The notes under the pieces were generated by a model, which saw only the letters and a list, made by a program, of their open reading frames with translations, was not told the DNA's origin and made no database searches. Source: Candidatus Gastranaerophilales bacterium (GTDB lineage Bacteria > Cyanobacteriota > Vampirovibrionia > Gastranaerophilales > Gastranaerophilaceae). Taken from it: 64,000 nt of DNA. Positions 20,481 to 27,429 of this stretch are shown piece after piece. Every line of letters begins with the position of its first letter. The first letter of the stretch is position 1. The stretch covers positions 248,001 to 312,000 of the forward strand of contig CALVFT010000001.1 in the NCBI GenBank assembly GCA_944326915.1, written 5' to 3'. A program made the translations under genes and the position numbers.

Positions 20481-20514
20481 AAACAGGTTTTGCAATATCC
20501 AGACCTGTTTTTTT
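20481..20514 (+). terminator. Bidirectional terminator
   Basis: AAACAGGT (20481-20488) pairs with ACCTGTTT (20503-20510), flanked by A and T tracts. It serves the 62-residue gene and probably the convergent porin gene. Confidence 0.8.
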
Positions 20515-21850
20515 ATAGCAATATTTGTGTTCCGAGAATAATTCTGTGACTATCTTCTGTATCTTCATTATCACAAAAAACATAATTCAAAATTAAACGT
20601 AGAGCCTGACCTTTTATAAAATAGTTTATACCTGCCGAATACTCTCTACGAAGATTGCTTGCAACATCACGATTAGGGTCAAACTGATCATATCGAGCCA
20701 AGATATGTAATTTTTGTGTAAGTCTGTATTGTATAGTAGTATAAAAACCTGTAGCTTTATCAGTACTAATATAAGTTCCATTGTAGCCATCTGCAATAGC
20801 ATATTCAAAATTAGTCATAAATTTTTTGTATCTGTAACTTGCATAAGCACCACCCACTGTATAGTTAGTGTCATTATGACCTGCATTAAGACCACCACCT
20901 AACACAAGTGTTCCATACTTACCATCGGTTTTGCCCAAAGGTTTAAAGTTTACCCAACCGGTAAATTCTGCTCCAGGAAAAAATTCCTTAAAGAATCTAT
21001 CAGAACTGTTTAAAGCAACACTATAATCAACCAGATCATAATCTCCTACCACACGAACTCCCAAAGCTCTTGTGTTACCAAAAGTTCTCGAAATTTGTGA
21101 ACGCATAGCAAAAGGTAATACATAAGACCCCATACCTCCTTCAAAACCTACTTGGTTACGAGAATTACCAATGATAATTTTATGATGAGGAATTCTTGTA
21201 TTCATTATATAAGCATCAGTAACAAGACCTTGTAAATAAGTTCTATTTTCACCCTTTTTAAAGTTAAATTGGAGTTTAAAATCAGTATTTTTATCTTTAA
21301 AATCTCCAACTACACCAGCTTCCATAAATCCAAAGCCATAATCAGTATCATAATCAGATCCTGAAAAATCAAACCCCATATTACCCTGATAAGCACCGTA
21401 AAACTGTACTTTATCAATAATTCCCTTTTTATATTTGAAAGTCAACTCATCTTTTAATAAGAATGAAGGAATGGAAGTTCTTTCAAGCTTTTTTTTATAA
21501 ATACGCCCAAATAAAGACTCCTCCTCAATCTTAAAAGGATGATCAGAATCTTTATCAGTATCAATCAAGTTATCAAAAATTGAGAATTCGGTATCTACGT
21601 TATCCCTAATAATATCTTTTTGAATCCAATCAGAAGTGTTATTTTTTTTATTATTTTCTCGGTTTTCAAAATTGTCATCAGGAATTTCCTGCTTGTCTAC
21701 AGAATCATTTTTTGAAACATCAAGATGTATTACCTCTTGCTCTTGTGGAGGATTTACATCGGAAGTAGGTTTAACTTTTCCAAAAGCAAACGTAGGCGGG
21801 GCAAGCATTATAGCAATAAATATTAAAGCTATTCTTAAAAAACAATTCAC
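20513..21850 (-). CDS. Outer-membrane porin, phosphate-selective O/P-like
   Basis: A 445-residue exported beta-barrel. Residues 1-22 are a signal peptide (LRIALIFIAIMLAPPTFAFG). Residues 23-115 are an acidic, Asp/Asn-rich linker, and from about 130 alternating amphipathic strands run to the end. GFEGGMGSYVLPFAMRSQISRTFGNTRALGVR resembles the core of the OprO/OprP porin family. The protein ends in Leu-Leu rather than the usual aromatic residue. It proves an outer membrane. Ion selectivity cannot be told. The acidic linker could sit in the periplasm or contact the wall. Confidence 0.8.
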   Translation of the reverse strand: MNCFLRIALIFIAIMLAPPTFAFGKVKPTSDVNPPQEQEVIHLDVSKNDSVDKQEIPDDNFENRENNKKNNTSDWIQKDIIRDNVDTEFSIFDNLIDTDKDSDHPFKIEEESLFGRIYKKKLERTSIPSFLLKDELTFKYKKGIIDKVQFYGAYQGNMGFDFSGSDYDTDYGFGFMEAGVVGDFKDKNTDFKLQFNFKKGENRTYLQGLVTDAYIMNTRIPHHKIIIGNSRNQVGFEGGMGSYVLPFAMRSQISRTFGNTRALGVRVVGDYDLVDYSVALNSSDRFFKEFFPGAEFTGWVNFKPLGKTDGKYGTLVLGGGLNAGHNDTNYTVGGAYASYRYKKFMTNFEYAIADGYNGTYISTDKATGFYTTIQYRLTQKLHILARYDQFDPNRDVASNLRREYSAGINYFIKGQALRLILNYVFCDNEDTEDSHRIILGTQILL

Positions 21851-23414: not shown

Positions 23415-23738
23415 ATGTTAATGACGAATATTGAAACTGTACCTGGAATGAATATTATTGCACAGTATGGTCTAGTTACAGGTAGTACAGTAAGAGCCAA
23501 AAATGCTATTAAAGATTTTGGTGCAGGCCTAAAAAATATGGTTGGTGGTGAATTAAAAAGCTACACTGAGCTTTTAACAGAAGCCAGAAAAGAAGCTATT
23601 GAAAGAATGAAAGAACAAGCAAAAAGACTTGGGGCTAATGCTATAATCAATATAAGATTAGCGACTTCTTCAGTAACTGTAGGTGCTGCTGAAGTGTATG
23701 CCTATGGAACAGCTGTAAAAGTAGAACCGAAAGGATAA
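23415..23738 (+). CDS. YbjQ/UPF0145-family protein
   Basis: A 107-residue protein of the YbjQ family (Pfam heavy-metal-binding domain, related to dodecin-like oligomers). The family motif is ATS-VTVGAAEVYAYGTAV, preceded by ARKEAIERMKEQAKRLGANAIINIRLAT. Members form pentamers, and their role is poorly defined. GGAGG precedes the start. It is the first of five genes in tight succession (23415-27130). The second is a membrane-anchored paralogue. Confidence 0.9.
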   Translation: MLMTNIETVPGMNIIAQYGLVTGSTVRAKNAIKDFGAGLKNMVGGELKSYTELLTEARKEAIERMKEQAKRLGANAIINIRLATSSVTVGAAEVYAYGTAVKVEPKG

Positions 23739-23742
23739 TTTA

Positions 23743-24195
23743 ATGGAAGATATAATATTTCTATTGATTATACTTAGCGTAACTTACGTAACAGGTTCTA
23801 TCATTGAAAAGAAACATTTTGAGAGTATCAAAAAAAGAGAAAGAGCACTTATTAGAAAACCTATTATAAGTTTTGGTGCAAAAACTTGGAATACAAACAA
23901 AAAAATTAAAAAGATTGAGCTTGTAACAGGTGAAGTCGTAATTAGTGGTGATTATTTTAAAAACTTCGTAGCTTCATTAAAAAACCTTTTTGGCGGTAGA
24001 TTAACAACTTTTGAATCAGTCTTAGACAGAGGAAGAAGAGAAGCAGTTTTAAGAATGAGAGAAAAAGCAATTGGTGCACACTACATCATAAATGCAAGAA
24101 TAGAATCAATTATGATAAATGATAACTATTCATCAAAAGAGAGTGTTCCTCAATGCGCAATAATCGCATATGGTACAGCAGTAACTTATGAATAA
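23743..24195 (+). CDS. Membrane-anchored YbjQ paralogue
   Basis: A 150-residue protein. Residues 1-18 form one hydrophobic segment (IIFLLIILSVTYVTGSII), residues 19-60 are a basic linker, and the rest is a YbjQ domain (RGRREAVLRMREKAIGAHYIINARIES ... IIAYGTAVTYE). About half of its core residues match the preceding gene product, so the two arose by duplication. It begins 4 nt after that gene's stop and overlaps the protease gene by 8 nt. This arrangement would give a mixed soluble and anchored YbjQ oligomer. Confidence 0.88.
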   Translation: MEDIIFLLIILSVTYVTGSIIEKKHFESIKKRERALIRKPIISFGAKTWNTNKKIKKIELVTGEVVISGDYFKNFVASLKNLFGGRLTTFESVLDRGRREAVLRMREKAIGAHYIINARIESIMINDNYSSKESVPQCAIIAYGTAVTYE

Positions 24196-24976
24196 AGATC
24201 TTGAAGAAAAATACCTGAGTGTAATAGAAGATAACGTCAATGTTGGCAAGTCCAATGTTGGCGTTGAGTTTGTAATCTTAATTTTAGGTATTGCAGCTAT
24301 TTTTGGTATGGTTTATATTTTTGCGGATAATATCTCAAACCTATTTATCGACAAAATGTCAACAGAAACTCAGATGAAAATAGAAAATTCGATATCCTCA
24401 AATGTGTCACTAGATATAGATAAAAATAGCAAGCATGTAAAAAAATTAAATGAATTAAGAGACAAAATTATAAGCCTTGATCCCGAACTTCAAAATAAAT
24501 CCTCCTTCAAAATTTTTGAAGTGAAAAATAAAGAAATAAATGCATTTGTTATTCCGAATGGAACCATATATTTTACATCAGGCCTCTTAAATAAAATAAA
24601 TGACGAAGAAACTCTTGCGTTTATACTCGCTCACGAAATGGGACATTATGCACATAGAGACCATCTAAAAAGTATAAGTAGAGATATTATTGTTTATACT
24701 TTAACATCAATATTTTCAAATAACCAACAAAATGTTAATATGACCCTAAATAGTATATCCGGTCTACATGCACTAAAATATTCAAGAAACCAAGAAAGAA
24801 ATGCTGATAGGTATGCAAATACAGTAGTATACAAATTGTATGGAAATAATAATGGGGCTGTTAAATTTTTCGAATTTCTTGAAAAAGAAGAAAAAACACC
24901 CGAATTTTTACAATATTTTTCTACCCACCCTGCAACTAGGGAAAGAATCAAAATGCTAAAAGGAAGGAATTTTTAA
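24188..24976 (+). CDS. M48-family membrane metalloprotease
   Basis: A 262-residue zinc protease of the Ste24/HtpX/BepA group. One span lies near 28-47, and the catalytic domain follows. HEMGH is in LAFILAHEMGHYAHRDH (about 147) and the third metal ligand is Glu in RNQERNADRYAN. STHPATRERIKML is the usual M48 C-terminal motif. It has a single anchor, unlike HtpX with four spans, and lacks the TPR domain of BepA. That TPR function could be supplied by the last gene in the operon. It overlaps both neighbours (8 nt and 1 nt). Confidence 0.92.
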   Translation: MNKDLEEKYLSVIEDNVNVGKSNVGVEFVILILGIAAIFGMVYIFADNISNLFIDKMSTETQMKIENSISSNVSLDIDKNSKHVKKLNELRDKIISLDPELQNKSSFKIFEVKNKEINAFVIPNGTIYFTSGLLNKINDEETLAFILAHEMGHYAHRDHLKSISRDIIVYTLTSIFSNNQQNVNMTLNSISGLHALKYSRNQERNADRYANTVVYKLYGNNNGAVKFFEFLEKEEKTPEFLQYFSTHPATRERIKMLKGRNF

Positions 24977-25896
24977 TGAAAATCACTAATGTTTCTGCAA
25001 AAATATCACTTAAACCTGTTTTATTAACATTTGCAATAAGTGTTGGGATTACTATATTGTTTTGTTTACTATTTTTATCTTCAGGACCTGCTGAAATATC
25101 ATTTTCAGAGTTTTTCAAATGGTACGGAAGTTTTATACAATATCTAACAGCAGACCAACCGACATACGTAATAGAAATATGGCTTTTTGTTGGATTAGGA
25201 CCAATTATTGTTTATGGAACTTTCTTCTTTATGCTTATATACAGACAAATTCAATTATCACAATTTAAATCAGGACTTAATCTAAAATATATTAATTTGA
25301 AAGATGGAAATATTGATTTTGTATTTAACAAAAAAGGATTCGACTTTTCATGCGGATACAAAGATATTGAAAAAATTGATATGATAATAAAGACTGAACG
25401 TACCACACGCTATGTTAATAAATATTCCAAACGTTACGTAATTGTAATTTCAGAAATTCAATTAGCTTTTTATCTACTTAATAAGAAAAAATTTAAAATA
25501 GCTAATACTGGATGTTTATCTCCAATTAACATGATTTACAAAATTATTGATAACACACGTCCTATTTCTAACCTTATTAATTATGAAGTTGATGGACCTG
25601 ATGATGGCATAATGGAAAAGGTCCAAACTTACGTCAAGAAAAATTACAAACAAAAATATACATTGCGCGAAAGAAATAGATTAAAATTTGCTTCTGTTGG
25701 ACTTTTGATAATGGCTATTATGTTCATTTTAGTATTCAAAGATACATTAATTAAAAATCCATATGACTCATTCCTTTTACAAATGTTACTTATCCCATTA
25801 GCAATACTTATTATCCCATCAATAATAATAGATATTTTAGTAATCATTGACGAAAATAATGAGAAAAAGTATGGTAACAGGGGGTTAAATGGATAG
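24976..25896 (+). CDS. Hypothetical four-span membrane protein in the M48 operon
   Basis: A 306-residue protein. Hydrophobic segments lie near 14-36, 68-90, 236-254 and 262-292. The central soluble part (about 95-220) contains strands such as GNIDFVFNKKGFDFSCGYKDIEKIDMIIK and RYVIVISEIQLAFYLLNKKKFKI. It has the feel of a bacterial PH-like domain inside membrane segments, but this is a guess. The start codon shares its A with the stop of the protease gene, and the end overlaps the next gene by 8 nt, so all are translated together. Confidence 0.75.
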   Translation: MKITNVSAKISLKPVLLTFAISVGITILFCLLFLSSGPAEISFSEFFKWYGSFIQYLTADQPTYVIEIWLFVGLGPIIVYGTFFFMLIYRQIQLSQFKSGLNLKYINLKDGNIDFVFNKKGFDFSCGYKDIEKIDMIIKTERTTRYVNKYSKRYVIVISEIQLAFYLLNKKKFKIANTGCLSPINMIYKIIDNTRPISNLINYEVDGPDDGIMEKVQTYVKKNYKQKYTLRERNRLKFASVGLLIMAIMFILVFKDTLIKNPYDSFLLQMLLIPLAILIIPSIIIDILVIIDENNEKKYGNRGLNG

Positions 25897-27130
25897 TATA
25901 CATAAAAAAGAACTTGAAAATATAATCAAAATACTTCAATCAGAAGATTATTCTAACTACGAACAAGCTTATAACAAGTTACTTGAACTAGATAGAACGT
26001 ATCCAGATAACCCTGACATACAAATCTGGATAGCATACTACTTACTTTATACTGATCTCGATCCAAGGGAAGCAATGGATTACTGCAAAAGATGTCTTGA
26101 AATAAACCCTGATAATGAAATCGCAAAAACAGTACTCGAAGATTGTTACATTGCAATTAAACTAAAAAAGAAACAATCAGAACCTCCAGTATATAATACT
26201 CAGACATATAATTTTCCTCCAGCAAAATACATATTGATTGTAAAAATAATCATTATATTAGCTGTCATATATTTTCTATTTCCTAATGTTCTATTTGGCT
26301 CAAATGATTTTAAAATTGCAAAAATAAATTCTTACATAGGTAATTACAAAACCGAAAATATATTACCAATAAACCCTCCACAAGAATATAACGGGTTTAC
26401 TAAACAGCAAATTTATGATATCAGAAAAAACTTTGTAAAAAAATCAATCTTTAATACTCCACAATACAGCCCTAATGATGAAATTTTTGGACGTATAGTT
26501 GATGGAAAACCTTGGTGGGGCATAAATCAAATTGTATGTTCACCATACAAACAAAAAGATTTTGATAGAACAACAGGTATTTCTGCTGTAAGTAAATATA
26601 TTAACAACCCAAATATGTTAATCCAAGTTATGTTCCCATTCAATTACAATTTGGAATATGACCGAATAGGATATTGCAGTTCAGAATATTCAAAAACTAT
26701 TCCATATCAACTAGTTTATTTAAAGAAAGAAAATTTAATCATAGCAAAATACAAACTAGATAAAAGAGTTTTAAAATCATACTTAAATTGGAATGGAGAA
26801 AAAAGAAAATATTTTCTTAACATAGTAGGACTCAATGCAAAAGATTTTGGATATAATTATGCTTACGCATACAATCTAAAAAATATGCATATGACAGAAA
26901 AAAATAATTTATCTAACAAATTGACCTCATTCCTTGATTTTATCCATCTTGGTGGCAGTTGTAAACATCCTCAGGGATGTAACAATTTATCTCCTTATCA
27001 AGCAAACCTTGATTTTGAGTTAGATTACCTGCCAGCAGAAATGACAATAAAATTATGGAAAAAGAAACCAATGAACAATTATACAAAAGCTGATTTTTAT
27101 TACAGACTCGTATTTGAAAAACTACATTAA
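25889..27130 (+). CDS. TPR-domain membrane protein in the M48 operon
   Basis: A 413-residue protein. Residues 1-95 hold two to three TPR-like helical hairpins (YEQAYNKLLELDRTYPDNPDIQIWIAYYLL; DPREAMDYCKRCLEINPDNEIAKTVLEDCY). One membrane span lies near 112-132. The remaining 280 residues have no family I know, are Tyr/Asn-rich and would be extracytoplasmic (cysteines in IVCSPYK, GYCSSEYS, GSCKHPQGC could form disulfides). The TPR part would be cytoplasmic. It is the last gene, followed by a strong terminator. Confidence 0.78.
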   Translation: MDSIHKKELENIIKILQSEDYSNYEQAYNKLLELDRTYPDNPDIQIWIAYYLLYTDLDPREAMDYCKRCLEINPDNEIAKTVLEDCYIAIKLKKKQSEPPVYNTQTYNFPPAKYILIVKIIIILAVIYFLFPNVLFGSNDFKIAKINSYIGNYKTENILPINPPQEYNGFTKQQIYDIRKNFVKKSIFNTPQYSPNDEIFGRIVDGKPWWGINQIVCSPYKQKDFDRTTGISAVSKYINNPNMLIQVMFPFNYNLEYDRIGYCSSEYSKTIPYQLVYLKKENLIIAKYKLDKRVLKSYLNWNGEKRKYFLNIVGLNAKDFGYNYAYAYNLKNMHMTEKNNLSNKLTSFLDFIHLGGSCKHPQGCNNLSPYQANLDFELDYLPAEMTIKLWKKKPMNNYTKADFYYRLVFEKLH

Positions 27131-27141
27131 TAATGTGAAAC

Positions 27142-27177
27142 AAAAAAGAACCGATTTGTTAATCGGTTCTTTTTTTT
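27142..27177 (+). terminator. Bidirectional Rho-independent terminator
   Basis: A 15-bp perfect stem (27142-27156 with 27161-27175) with a TGTT loop and A/T ends separates the M48 operon from the convergent rpsF-ssb-rpsR operon. Confidence 0.9.
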
Positions 27178-27195
27178 ACATCCTTTGACAATATA

Positions 27196-27429
27196 CTAGT
27201 CAAAAACGTAGTTGATAATAGCAGCTTCTCTAGCACGTTTAATTGCTTTTGCAATCATTCTTTGGTGCTTAGCGCAGTTACCAGTAATTCTGCGAGGAAT
27301 AATTTTTCCTGCTTCTGTTAGGTATCTTTTCAATTTAGCAGCATCTTTAAAATCGATAGCTTCTACTTTGTCTGCGCAAAGACTGCAATTTTTACGTTTT
27401 TTCTTGTCATCGTTGTTTTGTCTTGCCAT
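27196..27429 (-). CDS. rpsR: 30S ribosomal protein S18
   Basis: A 77-residue small-subunit protein that pairs with S6 on the platform of the 30S subunit. The signature [39 protein letters not shown] is clear. C19 and C22 in NCSLCADK, with C49 later, are the ancestral zinc-type form. It is the last gene of rpsF-ssb-rpsR. A CCAATC/GATTGG hairpin lies in the 101-bp gap before it. Confidence 0.97.

Follow-up and report, generated by a model that had tools for sequence, protein, structure and literature searches.

Two separable modules, a YbjQ–M48 protease operon and a D–E membrane-protein pair, adjoin in a five-gene array of a Gastranaerophilales bacterium

Five closely packed genes in a Candidatus Gastranaerophilales genome raise the question of whether their products form one membrane complex, as a preliminary description had proposed, or belong to separable units. 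ORF translation of the 64-kb window (the whole stretch of DNA analyzed) gave five open reading frames, here called A to E, all on the plus strand (Table 1). Their recomputed borders, with a gap of +4 nt between A and B and overlaps of 8, 1 and 8 nt for B-C, C-D and D-E, agree with the gaps and overlaps given at the outset (4 nt and 1–8 nt). A Shine-Dalgarno-like GGAGG lies close by on the 5′ side of A, and a search for a promoter of A's own found no excess of promoter-like matches (30, vs 26.9 ± 5.2 in shuffles). Five same-strand ORFs, near-zero spacing and a strong terminator after E bear out the view of the array as a single tightly packed unit. The order A-B-C-D-E, whose conservation had been proposed as a check, recurs complete at the same locus in 10 other related genomes (11 with the window), between an Orn/Lys/Arg decarboxylase gene on one side and rpsR/ssb/rpsF on the other, and is therefore real and beyond chance.

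Table 1. Coordinates of the five genes and of the features at their 3′ border, numbered from the first nucleotide of the window.
Feature	Description	Position	Strand	Basis or remark
Gene A	Soluble YbjQ_1 protein, 107 aa, without Cys or His	23415..23738	+	PF01906
Gene B	150 aa, YbjQ domain after one N-terminal TM (~residues 3–21)	23743..24195	+	PF01906
Gene C	Single-span M48 zinc metalloprotease, 262 aa	24188..24976	+	PF01435
Gene D	306 aa, four-span, PH-like domain (~residues 100–200) between two helix pairs	24976..25896	+	AF2 model
Gene E	413 aa, TPR-like (~20–95), TM (~114–132), extracytoplasmic 152–413	25889..27130	+	Profiles/model
E-domain	~255 aa, unclassified, extracytoplasmic	26342..27130	+	Alignment, model
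Terminator region	Operon end, 3′ of E	27128–27180		Computed −19.7 kcal/mol, z −6.23
Rho-independent terminator hairpin	Between E and convergent rpsR	27143..27177	.	U-tract on both strands
rpsR (S18)	Convergent with E	27196–27429	−	

Across relatives, the five genes are two separable modules, A-B-C and D-E. Three close relatives (G022, G066 and G349) carry A-B-C without D-E, six genomes (G084, G249, G130, G241, G262 and G267) carry D-E without A-B-C, and co-occurrence of the two at the shared locus is not significant (11/3/3/4, Fisher p = 0.16), so that the five proteins can no longer be regarded as one set. In three genomes D and E are a single fused protein, which places D with E and not with the protease, and the loci inspected hold no fusion of either one to a gene of A-B-C. 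Although the shared order and tight spacing in the 11 genomes favor one obligate membrane complex of all five proteins, serving quality control or surface-protein processing, the presence/absence pattern and the fusions rule out such an obligate assembly, and we consider this reading very improbable. Alternatively, D-E might be a small cassette for conflict or defence that came to lie behind A-B-C by chance. The pair is patchy at its fixed locus and decayed in G235, D diverges fast (30–36% identity where A retains 85–89%), and in G039 and G118 a Mokosh-like helicase-nuclease gene precedes that of a related stand-alone E-domain protein, all of which would fit. However, PADLOC returned no match for D or E (nor for A or B, with a weak match of C to capP, and a defence system was rejected), neither protein matched a toxin-like or nuclease family, and most of the stand-alone E-domain proteins inspected do not adjoin defence genes, leaving the cassette improbable in our judgment.

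The AF2 model of D has a mean pLDDT of 75.7, with 85–88 across residues 90–140. Set beside bacterial and eukaryotic PH domains, its central domain resembles the N-terminal PH domain of SSRP1 (5umr; Foldseek prob 1.00 and TM(target) 0.60, yet E 0.05), but it sits between two TM hairpins and is without a sequence-family match: D hit no Pfam family (PH and bPH included) and no PDB sequence, and an assignment to DUF2207 (E 0.07) fell far short of the cut-off. E had been described as a TPR membrane protein with a large extracytoplasmic part, which stands with the amendment that the TPR part covers only ~80–100 aa and is cytoplasmic; the TPR match is weak (~5e-4; TPR_8 at 20.5 bits vs a gathering threshold of 25.7, at residues 59–76). 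The E-domain is modelled with a pLDDT of 90.3 and a pTM of 0.89, and R179, Y193, W209, N316, D319, H353, C364, N365 and N366 are invariant in 29 aligned members. C358 and C364 make up a conserved pair. Searches found no fold match among PDB or viral structures, no PDB sequence match and only scattered weak hits in Pfam. Its position outside follows from the odd number of spans (3 or 5) predicted ahead of it in the three D-E fusions and from the lipoprotein-like or signal-peptide-like N-termini of some stand-alone relatives, and the positive-inside rule puts the YbjQ domain of B on the membrane face opposite to the large domain of E. The D-E pair was found in the window organism's family only; among 194 genomes sampled from the phylum, the E-domain was confined to that family, and it is also present in further families of the class.

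The A-B-C operon is old and self-contained, and most bacteria that carry it have it alone, without D-E. Scanning GTDB genomes with the B protein gave at least 544 B loci, of which the 80 best-scoring were compared; A-B-C stands in that order in 72 of these 80 (70 by whole ORFs and two cut by contig ends), a figure biased toward closely related operons because the loci were ranked by how closely they resemble a single B protein. Within the same best 80, median spacing is 8.5 nt for A-B and 0 nt for B-C. Flanking genes share the strand of the operon at random (37/70 upstream, 31/67 downstream), so that A, B and C are the whole unit. Among the best B loci, with phyla taken from record titles, the operon occurs in at least 11 diderm phyla: Thermodesulfobacteriota, Pseudomonadota, Nitrospirota, Nitrospinota, Omnitrophota, Goldiibacteriota, Elusimicrobiota, Spirochaetota, Cloacimonadota, Acidobacteriota and Cyanobacteriota. 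Isolates that carry it include Desulfoluna limicola, Desulfosarcina widdelii, Desulfosediminicola flagellatus, Desulfuromusa kysingii and Azonexus hydrophilus, and it was also found in other families of the window organism's class and in two more cyanobacterial families (f12 and f13). The earlier view of a membrane protease with two YbjQ partners, one soluble and one anchored, is supported, as is a conserved gene order. A LemA-type neighbourhood was considered and rejected: the genes upstream of A-B-C in the family's other genera encode a TPR protein and a HAD hydrolase, and the random-strand neighbours of the broad locus set contradict it as well. In the literature searched, no earlier description of either module was found, which fits the initial statement on the five-gene set, and no paper joins YbjQ with M48; the four papers mentioning YbjQ, metalloprotease and operon together are, by title, proteomics or genomics studies.

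Both A and B contain the full UPF0145/YbjQ domain (PF01906; E. coli YbjQ, PDB 1vr4, 2gtc and 1y2i). A matches PF01906 (YbjQ_1) with E 5.5e-38 and 130.2 bits over positions 1–103 of 103, and B with E 1.2e-17 and 64.9 bits over positions 12–102 of 103, against a cut-off of 23. YbjQ structures are pentamers (PMC4092069), the three solved relatives appear in the PDB listing with five chains each, and A is colinear with them. The solved members are soluble and have no known role; in the present operon a protease is linked to a pair of YbjQ paralogues, of which one is soluble and the other anchored by a TM helix. The B proteins form one clade in the tree (support 100/99). K/R residues are richer on the C side of the B helix in 75/79 relatives and the reverse in 0, from which the positive-inside rule predicts a cytoplasmic YbjQ domain; E22, H25, R32, E33 and an RxRREA-LR motif are invariant or nearly so, with 94–100% conservation of the TM-proximal motif. 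By Dali comparison, YbjQ has its fold in common with RcsF and DUF1471 (PMC4092069). RcsF, a sensor of envelope stress, differs in being a monomeric lipoprotein of the outer membrane, and its likeness to YbjQ is one of fold.

C matches Peptidase_M48 (PF01435, E 8.6e-31), and H149/E150/H153, E203, D207, H247-P248 and R253 are kept in 92/92 relatives, corresponding to the zinc ligands and HP active-site plug defined for M48 enzymes (PMC7950410); HEXXH, the downstream Glu ligand, the HP plug and the Arg are thus all present. These features are common to LoiP, YcaL, BepA and HtpX of E. coli, but C has one N-terminal TM anchor and is not a lipoprotein (no lipobox), a TPR fusion or of the multi-span HtpX type, and unlike those four it stands in a fixed operon with two YbjQ genes. 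Its best NCBIfam profile, LoiP (NF052399), scores 59.9 bits vs a cut-off of 365, and BepA (NF052400) 49.9 bits vs 570. The absence of a TPR partner domain, initially thought unusual, is not so, since among the four M48 proteases of E. coli it is for BepA that a TPR domain is described as required to recognize substrates (PMC7950410). The orientation signal of C is weak (K/R richer on the N side in 45/92 and on the C side in 17/92, and equivocal with 15-aa flanks); from it we infer that the catalytic domain may face outward, and a cytoplasmic one would change the mechanism drawn below.

Of the two modules that meet at this locus, we hold it an even call that the first is an A/B ring that organizes or gates protease C and the second a D-E envelope device. 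A and B would build a homo- or hetero-oligomeric YbjQ ring, probably pentameric, tethered to the cytoplasmic face of the inner membrane via the TM helices of B. C, a single-span M48 enzyme presumably held shut by its HP plug, would set its N-terminal tail and TM helix beside the B helices; the ring may recruit, cluster or gate C, which could then cleave damaged or unassembled envelope or membrane proteins. D would hold its PH-like domain in the cytoplasm and E, or the E half of the fusion, the new domain outside, such that the two may act as a transmembrane sensor or binder, placed behind A-B-C in the window lineage. HflK/HflC with FtsH likewise comprises two paralogues from a family that forms oligomers, at least one of them tethered to the membrane, and a membrane zinc protease, and would share the proposed scaffold/regulator logic, a comparison that serves as a working principle only: Pfam assigns YbjQ and M48, not SPFH (Band 7) and AAA+, and the A-B-C complex itself is putative. 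More tentatively, A-B-C may constitute an undescribed, phylum-spanning diderm membrane protease complex in which a YbjQ ring tethered by its anchored paralogue controls M48, with a new fold in the outer domain of E.

It is rather unlikely, in our estimate, that the three genes are merely co-regulated, with an A-B complex having its own job at the cytoplasmic membrane surface and C acting as an independent LoiP-like envelope protease under shared envelope stress. No C could be detected beside A-B at six of the 80 best loci (five of them well within a contig, the sixth at the end of one), so A-B may also work by itself; orphan YbjQ proteins are common, and the catalytic domain of C may face the side opposite to A and B. 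Yet the A-B-C order and near-zero spacing are kept over at least 11 phyla with nothing else kept around, and C has a conserved N-terminal tail of its own (N18 in 96% of 92). That YbjQ binds heavy metal or zinc, supplying or sensing zinc for protease C, would accord with the Pfam title of PF01906 ('Putative heavy-metal-binding') and with C being a zinc enzyme, but we give it almost no credence. The A protein of the window has neither Cys nor His, 113/126 A-type proteins lack Cys, no His or Cys reaches 90% conservation in the alignment of 126 A proteins, and the sole conserved His/Cys in B is H25, adjoining the membrane. Metal binding by YbjQ was rejected because the residues that the title implies, though it sets no formal criterion, are absent.

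YbjQ is an old, widespread family with solved pentamers and no known function, and the A-B-C operon, present in at least 11 phyla with an active-site-complete M48, makes its role directly testable in cultured bacteria and speaks against calling the family 'heavy-metal-binding'. With D-E comes an extracytoplasmic domain that is modelled with confidence but unclassified, and that is typical of these relatives of cyanobacteria, which do not photosynthesize. If true, the proposed mechanism would provide a first function for the YbjQ family and a dedicated non-SPFH scaffold for M48.

The five open reading frames of the preliminary description were borne out in position: a soluble YbjQ protein (A) is followed after 4 nt by a membrane-anchored YbjQ protein (B), and overlaps of 8, 1 and 8 nt then lead to an M48 protease (C), a four-span protein (D) and a TPR protein with one transmembrane (TM) helix (E). 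Pfam assigned YbjQ to A and B and M48 to C, matched no family to D, and left E with a weak TPR stretch, then the TM helix and ~255 aa without a family (the E-domain, predicted extracytoplasmic). The upstream flank is an Orn/Lys/Arg decarboxylase gene and the downstream flank rpsR/ssb/rpsF (rpsF assigned from its own sequence), and E is separated from the convergent rpsR gene by a strong terminator hairpin (z -6.2). A further gene encodes a 445-aa protein that begins like a signal peptide and keeps 82-87% identity in most of the relatives that have the locus; it gave no Pfam match at 1e-5 and is, judged by eye, possibly a porin.

The five genes are most simply explained as two adjacent modules, A-B-C and D-E. 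The searches covered as many as 146 genomes in the class Vampirovibrionia and as many as 292 in the phylum Cyanobacteriota, and gene maps were drawn from the retrieved loci. The gene order, which had been put forward for checking in relatives, recurs complete and between the same flanking genes in ten genomes of a sister genus (G004, G010, G028, G033, G053, G061, G069, G071, G090 and G219), two of which (G069, G090) carry an additional D copy upstream of A. At the same place, A-B-C stands alone in G066, of the same genus, and in G022 and G349, D-E stands alone in G084 and G249, and D is fused to the E-domain in G130. Whole-genome searches found no D in G022, G066 or G349, and no B in six genomes with D or D-E (G084, G249, G130, G241, G262 and G267). 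Association at the locus was non-significant (11 both, 3 A-B-C, 3 D-E, 4 neither; p = 0.16, for rows that are not phylogenetically independent). In G235 a 30-aa piece of D adjoins a 71-aa piece of the E-domain, which suggests a decayed D-E pair.

A-B-C extends beyond the family: G002, G011, G047 and G038, from other families of the class, carry it, as do, elsewhere in the phylum, the families f12 (three genomes of ~5 Mb) and f13. Scanning one genome per GTDB species with a B alignment gave at least 544 confirmed relatives; among the 80 best-scoring, A-B-C was ordered on one strand at 70 loci, C was cut off by a contig end at two more, and six had A-B without detectable C. Besides Cyanobacteriota, record titles name Thermodesulfobacteriota, Pseudomonadota, Nitrospirota, Nitrospinota, Omnitrophota, Goldiibacteriota, Elusimicrobiota, Spirochaetota, Cloacimonadota and Acidobacteriota, all of them generally described as diderm. 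Many carriers are MAGs; isolates include Desulfoluna limicola, Desulfosarcina widdelii, Desulfosediminicola flagellatus, Desulfuromusa kysingii and Azonexus hydrophilus. The neighbouring gene shared the strand in 37/70 cases before A and 31/67 after C, about the half expected by chance, and the conserved unit is therefore exactly A-B-C.

B carries a basic stretch after its N-terminal TM helix (K/R excess on the C-side in 75/79 proteins, on the N-side in 0/79), a charge pattern that predicts a cytoplasmic YbjQ domain, on the same side as A. Membrane-adjacent E22, H25, R32 and E33 and an in-domain R-x-RREA-x-LR motif are 98-100% conserved. The B proteins form one fully supported clade (arbitrary root, bootstrap incompletely settled), pointing to a single origin of the anchored form as the most likely history. 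Solved YbjQ structures contain five chains per entry and are described as pentamers, with a fold common to RcsF/DUF1471 (PMC4092069). The Pfam title "putative heavy-metal-binding" is unsupported: A of the window has neither Cys nor His, and Cys is absent from 113/126 A-type proteins. G071 and G066 encode a second YbjQ protein of ~230 aa, an orphan that the tree places at a distance from both A and B; it is absent from the window's genome, where A and B are the only YbjQ proteins. B of G002 reaches 466 aa, with ~200 additional N-terminal residues, a second TM helix and a long C-terminal tail.

In C, H149, E150, H153, E203, H247, P248 and R253 are present in 92/92 relatives and comprise the M48 zinc ligands together with the HP plug of the active site, which is regulatory in BepA (PMC7950410). 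A conserved ~25-aa tail precedes a single TM helix, and K/R counts (45 versus 17 of 92) weakly favour an orientation with the tail inside and the protease outside.

The monomer model of D (pLDDT 75.7) has a strand-rich domain that ends in a helix and is flanked on either side by a TM hairpin. Foldseek matched it to the PH domains of SSRP1 (5umr; prob 1.00, TM 0.60 on target) and Rtt106 (prob 0.96-0.99), with E-values of ~0.05 or higher; the PH-like assignment is therefore a lead. The E-domain model, likewise of a monomer, is of high confidence (pLDDT 90.3, pTM 0.89) and matched nothing among solved or viral structures, Pfam families or PDB sequences. The domain was found in 34/194 sampled genomes of the phylum, all 34 in the window's family; in other families of the class it appears in stand-alone one-TM or signal-peptide-like proteins. 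In three D-E fusions (G130, G241, G262) the E-domain is preceded by three or five predicted spans, which, with the N-terminus inside, would put the PH-like domain inside and the E-domain outside. The TPR region is absent from these fusions and is thus dispensable for the D-E link. Tandem stand-alone copies in G259 and G264 show local duplication of this unclassified domain. In G039 and G118, the gene for an E-domain membrane protein follows, after 9-14 nt, a gene for a ~1037-aa SF1 helicase, which matches the Mokosh MkoC and PDC-S37 models at 1e-50 to 1e-55 and in G039 ends in an MTES_1575 nuclease domain. The two genes are a possible defence pair.

Coordinates of the operon and of features noted in the window and its relatives
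Feature	Location	Strand
Operon A-B-C-D-E	window 23415-27130	+
445-aa protein	window 20513-21850	-
Orphan YbjQ (G071, G066)	L105:17135-17818, L111:4678-5376	
466-aa B (G002)	L095:4387-5787	
D and E-domain remnants	G235:C4:65182-65565	
Tandem E-domain proteins (G259, G264)	L259:3903-5774, L260:4228-6319	
SF1 helicase and E-domain protein (G039, G118)	L116:1703-5868, L117:5115-9278	

In the collection of papers searched, none links YbjQ to M48. The proposed A-B-C arrangement resembles HflK/HflC-FtsH in principle, an arrangement recently exemplified in Plasmodium mitochondria by FtsH and a stomatin-like protein (PMC12912694), but has neither SPFH nor FtsH domains. From oligomeric relatives, the constancy of the gene order and the conservation of motifs in the tail and linker, we infer a YbjQ ring and its contacts: B would tether the ring, which would organise or gate protease C at the inner membrane. 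D-E may serve as an envelope sensor or binder.
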